Positions 51,538-53,250 of a DNA stretch of 64,000 nucleotides are shown here, piece after piece; within the stretch, counting starts at the first letter, position 1; the number at the start of each line of letters is the position of its first letter. The notes under the pieces were generated by a model. The model did not search any database and was not told the DNA's origin. It saw nothing but the letters and a program-made list of their open reading frames with translations. Both the position numbers and the translations under genes were made by a program. This DNA comes from a virus: positions 1-64,000 of the IMG/VR virus record IMGVR_UViG_3300025195_000023. One strand, 5' to 3'.

Positions 51538-51557
51538 GCCCTTCGGGTGTGCTACGG
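51538..51557 (+). promoter_or_regulatory. vRNAP hairpin promoter P1
   Basis: Stem CCC/GGG around a TTC loop, followed by TGTGCTACGG. Counting the loop centre (51543) as -11, as in N4, puts +1 at the A of TACGG (51554). The first of five matching elements; it drives the 65-residue early gene. Confidence 0.75.
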
Positions 51558-51587
51558 ATCCATCCATCAACTTCGGAGTACTATCCT

Positions 51588-51785
51588 ATGTTCGCAGCAC
51601 TAGCCCAACTGTGGTCAGCCATGTCAGCCCTGTTCTCAGCCGTCGAGCGAGGTGCAACAGCCCTCGATCACCTTGCCCGAGTAGGCGAGGAGACCGCAGC
51701 CGAGTACGCAGACGATGCAGCCAAGGCCAGAGCCAAAGCTCGCCGTCAGGTCACAGCCGCCAGAACCAAGGCCAAGACCAAGTAA
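51588..51785 (+). CDS. Small early protein 1
   Basis: A 65-residue Ala-rich helical protein from ATG 51588 (MFAALAQLWSAMSALFS) with a basic C terminus (KARRQVTAARTKAKTK). Hydrophobic-then-basic layout resembles a small membrane-associated or nucleic-acid-binding helix. It is the first gene behind promoter P1, so it is expected to be made within the first minutes. Followed by a terminator. No homology recognised. Confidence 0.55.
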   Translation: MFAALAQLWSAMSALFSAVERGATALDHLARVGEETAAEYADDAAKARAKARRQVTAARTKAKTK

Positions 51786-51791
51786 GCATCA

Positions 51792-51820
51792 GGCTCCCTT
51801 CGGGGAGTCTAGCTTTCTTC
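51792..51820 (+). terminator. Terminator after early gene 1
   Basis: GGCTCCC-ttcg-GGGAGTC followed by TAGCTTTCTT. Confidence 0.65.
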
Positions 51821-51914
51821 TACACAACTACACATCTACACAACTGGAGATAGATAGTTTAACCCTGAAAGGGGACTGTACTTCTGATTCACCTGAGCCT
51901 CAGCTCAGTGCCAG

Positions 51915-51937
51915 ATACACTCCGTGTATGCCATGAG
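51915..51937 (+). promoter_or_regulatory. Possible sixth vRNAP-type hairpin promoter
   Basis: A perfect 6-bp stem ATACAC/GTGTAT with a TCC loop; +11 from the loop centre is again an A (51933). The downstream sequence departs from the TACGG of the others, so the call is weaker. It precedes the gene at 51960. Confidence 0.4.
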
Positions 51938-51959
51938 TCCAATACATTAGGAGTACGTT

Positions 51960-52166
51960 ATGTCTGCACCACTGAAGCTCTACCCTTGCAGGGGAGTGAA
52001 TCTCTACTCACATCCACTGATGAAACAGTTCTTCTCTACGTCTGCCAATGACGAGCAATGTGAAAAGGTAGGAGAGAACAGTGAGACTGATCCAGTTGAT
52101 TTCACTGTTAACTCACCATTACCTGATAACTCAACATCAAACATCATCAATCTCTTCAAACGTTAA
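51960..52166 (+). CDS. Small early protein 2
   Basis: A 68-residue protein (MSAPLKLYPCRGVNLYSHPLMKQFFSTS) with a C-terminal LFKR and little recognisable structure. Start after TAGGAGTACGTT. It is expected early. Function unknown. Confidence 0.5.
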   Translation: MSAPLKLYPCRGVNLYSHPLMKQFFSTSANDEQCEKVGENSETDPVDFTVNSPLPDNSTSNIINLFKR

Positions 52167-52227
52167 GCTAACAGTCTCTACCTATGAACCGATACGAAGC
52201 CGATAGGCTAACTGTATTGAGTCTCAG

Positions 52228-52246
52228 TAGAGGCTTCACCTCTATT
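52228..52246 (+). terminator. Terminator after early gene 2
   Basis: TAGAGG-cttca-CCTCTA followed by TTTATT; directly before the second copy of the 14-bp repeat and promoter P2. Confidence 0.5.
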
Positions 52247-52260
52247 TATTAAGTCGTTTT
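52247..52260 (+). repeat. 14-bp repeat TATTAAGTCGTTTT, copy 2
   Basis: Identical to 17138-17151. It lies between a hairpin terminator and promoter P2. Confidence 0.45.
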
Positions 52261-52280
52261 GCGCTTCGCGTGTGTTGCGG
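52261..52280 (+). promoter_or_regulatory. vRNAP hairpin promoter P2
   Basis: GCGC-TTC-GCGT stem-loop followed by GTGTTGCGG. By N4 spacing +1 is 52277. It differs from the others only by TGCGG instead of TACGG. Confidence 0.7.
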
Positions 52281-52327
52281 AAGACATAGCATTCTGCTGT
52301 GTCATTGCTCACCACTGGAGGTGACCT

Positions 52328-52522
52328 ATGTATTCCAACGACGAGCTTGCTGCTATGGAGTTCCTGGCTGATCTTGAGCAACAGGACTTGGAGCATCAAC
52401 GGTACGTTGCTGAGTGCGAGCTTGATCAGCTCGTAGCCATGCAACCGGAACAGTTGGGTGCTGGCTGTAAGCCTCTGCCTATCCACTTCCGCGATGCCTA
52501 TGGCATCGACATACCCTTCTGA
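52328..52522 (+). CDS. Small early protein 3
   Basis: A 64-residue acidic helical protein (MYSNDELAAMEFLADLEQQDLEHQRYV). The GGAGGTGACCT ribosome binding site is very strong. It lies between promoter P2 and a terminator that continues into a 28-T run. Acidic, all-helical small early proteins often bind and inhibit host factors; that is only a possibility here. Confidence 0.6.
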   Translation: MYSNDELAAMEFLADLEQQDLEHQRYVAECELDQLVAMQPEQLGAGCKPLPIHFRDAYGIDIPF

Positions 52523-52569
52523 GAGCCCTACGGGGTTCTCCTTTTTTTTTTTTTTTTTTTTTTTTTTTT
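52521..52569 (+). terminator. Terminator with TACG loop and 28-T tail
   Basis: GAGAGCCC-TACG-GGGTTCTC gives an 8-bp stem, then C and 28 T in a row (52542-52569). The T run leads straight into promoter P3. Unusually long; the exact number may vary between molecules or reads. Confidence 0.8.
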
Positions 52570-52591
52570 ACGCGCTTCGCGTGTGTCACGG
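52570..52591 (+). promoter_or_regulatory. vRNAP hairpin promoter P3
   Basis: ACGCGC-TTC-GCGTGT, a 6-bp stem with one G-T pair, then GTCACGG. +1 would be A at 52588. Confidence 0.75.
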
Positions 52592-52630
52592 CAGGCATGT
52601 GCCTGTATTCACACTTGGGAGAGTGACGCT

Positions 52631-52816
52631 ATGAGCTTACAAATGCCAATTGACGCCAGATATCACATCACTGTGTTCGATGAGTCTGGTGCCGTCATCC
52701 ACTACGACGATCTTGATCGTGAAGCCATGGATGAGTTCCGTATGACTCACATGGACGATGATCTTGACTATGCCATCGAGTATGGCATCAAGCGTGGAGG
52801 CCAGATCCATGAATGA
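52631..52816 (+). CDS. Small early protein 4
   Basis: A 61-residue acidic protein from ATG 52631 (MSLQMPIDARYHITVFDESGAV) preceded by GGGAGAGTGACGCT. Later residues are DDLDREAMDEFRMTHMDDDLDYAIE, strongly negative. Possibly a DNA mimic or inhibitor; nothing is recognised. It overlaps the next small membrane gene. Confidence 0.55.
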   Translation: MSLQMPIDARYHITVFDESGAVIHYDDLDREAMDEFRMTHMDDDLDYAIEYGIKRGGQIHE

Positions 52817-52907
52817 TCTGGGCTTCTACGGATTGCTTGCAGTCCTGTCATTGGCAGGGCTGTGGCTGGTGTGGGACGACTTCAAGTCCCACCGTAAATC
52901 ACGTTAG
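52809..52907 (+). CDS. 32-residue membrane peptide
   Basis: MNDLGFYGLLAVLSLAGLWL then VWDDFKSHRKSR: one transmembrane helix and a basic cytoplasmic tail. ATG at 52809 overlaps the stop region of the upstream gene and GGAGGCCAGATCC precedes it. Too short for the usual ORF length cutoffs but has its own strong ribosome binding site. Confidence 0.55.
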   Translation: MNDLGFYGLLAVLSLAGLWLVWDDFKSHRKSR

Positions 52908-52934
52908 GCACCTTCGGGTGCCTTATCTTTTTCT
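52907..52934 (+). terminator. Terminator after early genes 4 and 5
   Basis: GGCACC-ttcg-GGTGCC followed by TTATCTTTTTC. Confidence 0.75.
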
Positions 52935-53042
52935 ACACAGCCATGCAACCTAACCTTTAACAATTTCTGACATTTCGGAGGTAGTCCCATGCCTAAACAT
53001 GTATAAAATGCACCGCATTTCCATGCGAGAATGTGTCGCATT

Positions 53043-53064
53043 AACACTTCGTGTGTGTTACGGG
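53043..53064 (+). promoter_or_regulatory. vRNAP hairpin promoter P4
   Basis: ACAC-TTC-GTGT stem-loop followed by GTGTTACGGG. +1 would be A at 53060. Confidence 0.75.
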
Positions 53065-53085
53065 ATCACAACACGGAGATAGATA

Positions 53086-53223
53086 ATGATCACCATCCTG
53101 TACTGCTGCCCTGTCTGTGGCTGTCACTGGGAACAATCCCTGAGCCAGACCGAGACAGTTATCACGCCTGAGTGCCAATGCCCGTCCTGCGAGGAGCCCG
53201 TTAGCGGAGTACTGAGTCGCTAG
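53086..53223 (+). CDS. 45-residue zinc-ribbon early protein
   Basis: MITILYCCPVCGCHWEQSL, then PECQCPSCEEPVS: two CxxC-type pairs (CPVC, and CQCPSC) with Trp, a likely zinc ribbon. ATG at 53086 after ACGGAGATAGATA. It lies between promoters P4 and P5. Small zinc proteins of this kind may bind nucleic acid or host polymerase; unproven. Confidence 0.55.
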   Translation: MITILYCCPVCGCHWEQSLSQTETVITPECQCPSCEEPVSGVLSR

Positions 53224-53225
53224 TG

Positions 53226-53250
53226 CGTGACGCTTCGCGTGTGGTACGGA
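53226..53250 (+). promoter_or_regulatory. vRNAP hairpin promoter P5
   Basis: ACGC-TTC-GCGT stem-loop followed by GTGGTACGGA. +1 would be A at 53246. The last clear promoter of the series, about 650 bp before RNA polymerase subunit 1. Confidence 0.75.

Follow-up and report, generated by a model that had tools for sequence, protein, structure and literature searches.

A DNA secondary structure is an obligatory part of the hairpin promoters found in Escherichia phage N4 (Schitoviridae, Enquatrovirinae), which are the classic example of this. The detailed rules for them rest on just three promoters, P1 to P3, of this one phage. Each lies on the coding strand, upstream of small early genes and those for RNAPII, and carries a 3-base loop, closed by a C-G pair and centered 11 bases before the start site, on a stem of 5 to 7 bp. 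Transcription from such promoters requires supercoiling and SSB. The template bases that N4 requires include -8G and +1C (PMC4496689). Elsewhere in the family, early hairpins have been predicted for the Pseudomonas phages LIT1 and LUZ7 (Migulavirinae), three per phage group (PMC3715699), and three early promoters are annotated in the Pectobacterium phage CB1 (Cbunavirus) (PMC6027278).

The DNA considered here, called the window, is 64,000 nucleotides long and forms the first part of a virus record of 73,086 bp. It encodes a giant single-subunit virion RNA polymerase (vRNAP) of 3701 aa (25375 to 36480, minus strand), recognized by its sequence match to N4 vRNAP structures, and a pair of RNAPII subunits (53901 to 56260, plus strand), one gp15-like (53901 to 54827) and one gp16-like (54974 to 56260). 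Together with a size within the range of about 70 to 80 kb, these complete the hallmarks of the Schitoviridae, and by this gene content the phage is therefore classed as N4-like. It is distant from cultured phages, the best identity of its RNAP1 being 49% among the phage-collection matches listed. Late genes run leftward and reach 51,376, while early genes run rightward from about 51.5 kb. No terminal repeats were found at the ends of the record.

Hairpin elements ahead of the early genes

The original prediction was that five hairpins with a TTC loop and one shared spacing serve as vRNAP promoters, all on one strand and upstream of small early ORFs, with a possible sixth, weaker element. The five are where they were said to be: the sequence CTTCGNGTGTGNNRCGG occurs exactly at 51541, 52264, 52575, 53047, and 53233, always on the plus strand, and counting 11 bases on from the loop center leads to A, G, A, A, and A, respectively, each followed by CGG. 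With the sixth included, there are six predicted promoters on the plus strand. Promoter 1 (51539 to 51557; CCC-TTC-GGG, tail TGTGCT) has its predicted start at 51554 (A) and precedes an ORF of 65 aa (51588 to 51785). Promoter 2, the former sixth element (51915 to 51936; ATACAC-TCC-GTGTAT), would start at 51933 (ATGA), before the ORF at 51960 to 52166. Promoters 3 (52262 to 52280) and 4 (52573 to 52591) have the same CGC-TTC-GCG hairpin, with predicted starts at 52277 (G) and 52588 (A), ahead of the ORFs at 52328 to 52522 and 52631 to 52816. Promoter 5 (53044 to 53063; ACAC-TTC-GTGT; predicted start 53060, A) and promoter 6 (53230 to 53249; ACGC-TTC-GCGT; predicted start 53246, A) are followed by the ORFs at 53086 to 53223 and 53303 to 53599, and the RNAPII subunit genes lie directly downstream of the array. 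The predicted leaders, each reaching up to a start codon, measure 34, 27, 51, 43, 26, and 57 bases for promoters 1 to 6. The last of these ORFs encodes a 98-aa early protein of the PHROGs family phrog_6271, labelled "toxin"; in most relatives it is kept just before RNAP1, usually behind a hairpin promoter.

Several of the early units are separated by terminator-like hairpins on the plus strand, which follow the first unit (51791 to 51810), the promoter 3 unit (52521 to 52540, then a long T run), and the promoter 4 unit (52906 to 52923). The run between the second of these hairpins and promoter 4 (52541 to 52569) consists of about 28 T's, which is unusual for a genome of 54% G+C.

How specific is the motif to this region? 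Allowing up to one mismatch, CTTCGNGTGTGNNRCGG has no further match in the whole record, and the sole site with two mismatches is at 9108. The tail GTGTGNNRCGG, searched for by itself, has exactly five genomic matches, every one within the array. With a wider pattern that also covers promoter 2, the window has six sites, whereas 100 shuffles gave none. The motif is thus restricted to the early region, with no copy in the middle or late region. Across 2.9 million viral contigs, the form with ACGG was found in 102 stretches, as a single copy with no array among the matches listed.

The stems were originally given as 3 to 6 bp, a range that holds only if G.T pairs on the nontemplate strand are counted. 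It overstates their length, since on the template, the strand on which N4 hairpins act, those pairs become A.C mismatches; the unbroken Watson-Crick stems of the five measure 3, 3, 3, 4, and 4 bp (3, 6, 3, 3, 4, and 4 for promoters 1 to 6). As these numbers show, the 6-bp stem of promoter 2 is the best of all, and only its tail is weaker (ATGA versus RCGG). It looks like a real member of the set, given this stem, its TCC loop, the same register, and a counterpart in a sister phage, L115, where a hairpin at 3339 precedes the orf2 orthologue and a stem A-T pair is replaced by G-C.

Are such short stems maintained? Within the six elements, positions -8 and -14 covary (G-C, A-T, and C-G), and pairing at -9/-13 and -7/-15 is unbroken throughout. 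In a set of 28 triloop elements drawn from nine phages, both sides vary in four of the stem pairs, and the covariation score is 0.79, versus 0.23 in shuffles and 0.06 to 0.07 with the partner shifted by one column. These compensatory changes, both within the window and across phages, support selection for pairing in the stem. Plain DNA folding energies are unremarkable for several elements and were set aside as thermodynamic proof of each hairpin; the case therefore rests on conservation and covariation.

Fit to the N4 rules and competing explanations

As in N4, the genome contains a vRNAP, and the hairpins are limited to the coding strand, where they precede small early genes and RNAPII. All six elements have a 3-base loop centered at -11, with a purine as the start base at the N4 distance. 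In all six, the closing pair (template 5'C:G3') and the loop's 5' G and 3' A are also kept, the nontemplate strand reading C-TTC-G or C-TCC-G and the template loop, as in N4, GRA (GAA or GGA). The template purine at -11 is A in five and G in one, and -10 is G in every element. The window also differs from N4. There are six elements rather than three, five of them have Watson-Crick stems of 3 to 4 bp instead of 5 to 7 bp, and the tail reads GTGTGNNRCGG where N4 is A/T-rich and then has GG. Not every element keeps -8G, or +1C if RNA starts there. The template base at -8 is G in three of the six and otherwise C or A. It varies as well in relatives with predicted promoters, LIT1 and LUZ7 among them, so that the variability is a property of the wider group. 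Template +1 is C in only one of six if RNA starts at +1, and in all six if it starts with the G at +3. Around the start, RYGG is the most constant sequence; its GG falls at +1/+2 in N4 and at +3/+4 in the window group. The start could be the purine, as originally proposed, or the first G two bases on; mapped start sites for LUZ7 or other relatives were not found in the literature searched. Because -8G and, with a start at +1, also +1C are often absent, the window promoters are best described, from their sequence, as a lineage-specific variant and not as the N4 sequence itself.

Overall, the reading as N4-type vRNAP promoters is supported by features shared with N4 (the spacing, the pair closing the loop, -10G, and the purine at -11), by the vRNAP and RNAPII genes, and by syntenic hairpins in relatives. 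It is very likely that all six elements function as early promoters recognized by the vRNAP of the phage itself, the protein encoded at 25375 to 36480 being the presumed reader. Promoter activity, extrusion, vRNAP binding, and start site are inferred from N4, and the sequence of events would be as follows. Host gyrase would supercoil the incoming part of the genome after injection, and the short inverted repeats would extrude, the template strand forming triloop hairpins (C-GAA-G at five sites, C-GGA-G at one). Co-injected vRNAP would then bind the hairpin and start RNA at the tenth base past the loop or two bases further. Each short transcript would carry a single small early gene or a few of them, with several units ending at an intrinsic terminator.

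Could the elements act instead as RNA, as UUCG-type hairpins, terminators, or processing sites within long early transcripts? CTTCGG hairpins are common in the terminators of this genome (51791 and 52906), and CCCTTCGGG lies within the element at 51541. However, no T run follows the elements, which are distinct from the true terminators. With CTTCGC or CTTCGT, four of the five are unable to close a UUCG tetraloop with C-G, and conservation extends beyond the hairpin into the downstream tail. No promoter of another type was found upstream. We regard an RNA role as very improbable. Slightly less probable again is that the elements are DNA promoters read by a different enzyme, either the middle polymerase, RNAPII, which the genome also encodes, or the host polymerase. 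The motif is missing from the middle and late regions and sits upstream of the RNAPII genes themselves, a covarying hairpin is needed, and no sigma70-like site was found between 51300 and 56700, where 4.8 are expected in shuffles. The least credible alternative, a different function for the repeats, for instance as sites of replication or packaging, draws on the position of the cluster near the late/early gene boundary, where N4-like genomes have their ends, but is hard to entertain given the irregular spacing, the single orientation, the start codon 26 to 57 bases after every copy, and equivalents in relatives that stay with orthologous genes.

Hairpins in the relatives and the size of the loop

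If the six elements are vRNAP promoters, what do other phages of the group carry at the same places? Relatives were gathered through RNAP1, so that the survey covers phages with a recognizable RNAP1, and the region upstream of that gene was scanned by clustering of repeated hairpins, with N4, LIT1, and CB1 as positive controls. In N4, the scan returned exactly three triloop hairpins (95, 564, and 4553), with the known spacing and a GG start. In LIT1, it returned those at 137, 3292, and 3551, ahead of genes 1, 12, and 13 in agreement with the prediction (PMC3715699), plus an extra one at 802, for a total of four. In CB1, the three annotated promoters were recovered along with three further hairpins. 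The number of three per phage given in publications may be too low. LIT1 and LUZ7 share with the window CTNCG triloops, TG at -4/-3, and RYGG at the start, on stems of 4 to 7 bp, but differ in that some of their loops are TAC (template center T). CB1 likewise has its hairpin promoters ahead of small early genes, but with ATA loops (six in L188, 1 to 7618). Still other codes are found: ACA in a Klebsiella phage (L140), ATA in L147 and L149, TCT in L117, and nine hairpins, mostly TAC, in pYD6-A (L189, 1 to 6504). With up to nine such hairpins in other schitoviruses by the identical scan, the original description of the window's array of early units as unusually modular was overstated. The kind of promoter was already known; what is new in the window is a set of six copies, five sharing one tail, and this is not a record.

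A generic rule (C-TNC-G, stem of at least 3 bp, and RYG[GA] after 9 bases) was applied upstream of RNAP1 in 28 loci. It matched 30 sites on the coding strand and none on the other, versus 0.76 in shuffles. With 4-base loops, there were 15 on the coding strand, 2 on the other, and 0.94 in shuffles; with 5-base loops, the corresponding values were 0, 0, and 0.96. In the window, the rule also matches at 17046, 55907, and 56391, which lack the GTGTG tail and are not claimed as promoters. Two of them, at 17046 and 56391, lie outside the early array and have a 6-bp stem, a TCC loop, and GTGA in register; they may be due to chance or related to terminators.

The less expected, new part of the comparison is the presence of 4-base loops at the same sites. 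Hairpins with the same closing (CTNNCG, template GNNA) number three each in L115 (2938, 4742, and 5525), L120 (3479, 4096, and 6118), L121 (4318, 5245, and 5710), and L137 (5172, 5655, and 6463), and at least one in L114 (4232). They keep the same register to RYG[GA] as the triloops, and stem covariation is also seen in 13 of them. Three TAAC hairpins occur in the cultured Erwinia phage S6 (L193; 507, 1080, and 5402). Promoter 4 is syntenic with a TCC hairpin in L114 (5020), and promoter 6 with a TCC hairpin in L114 (5703) and the TGTC hairpin in L115 (5525). Before orf1, the loop is TTC in the window, TGCC in L114, TGTC in L115, and TCC in L120; before orf6, it is TTC, TCC, and TGTC in the window, L114, and L115, respectively. 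At these orthologous sites the loop size changes while the distance from the 3' end of the loop to the predicted start stays constant at 9 bases, and each phage has its own loop and tail sequence. It is fairly likely that orthologous vRNAP promoters in this clade switch between loop sizes and that the code is rewritten per phage in both loop and tail. No reports of 4-base loops were found in an incomplete coverage of the literature, in which the open papers mention 3-base loops only.

What of the polymerase? The window vRNAP aligns with that of LIT1 across about 1,050 residues, and the catalytic Asp, Lys, and Asp columns are conserved in the alignment with relatives. Y678 of N4 vRNAP is the sugar-discriminating tyrosine of T7-like RNA polymerases, and its column holds Phe in the window vRNAP and in most relatives, including LIT1 and LUZ7. 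Alignment yielded no assignment for the contact residues, the equivalents of D901 and R904 included. Coevolution of the W129 equivalent with the loop center was considered, as in a first alignment the window and most phages with purine loops had W there, in contrast to LIT1, LUZ7, and the Klebsiella phage L140. Once more vRNAPs were added, the column moved to another aromatic residue, and the link was dropped as alignment dependent.

The window adds a six-promoter set from a distant lineage. Two features supposed to be required, -8G and a stem of at least 5 bp, are relaxed in it. The 4-base-loop versions and lineage-specific codes in sister phages make the recognition rules testable. If the switching of loop size is true, these vRNAPs would accept template loops of either 3 bases (GNA) or 4 bases (GNNA), would measure from the loop's 3' side, and would coevolve with whole sets of promoters.
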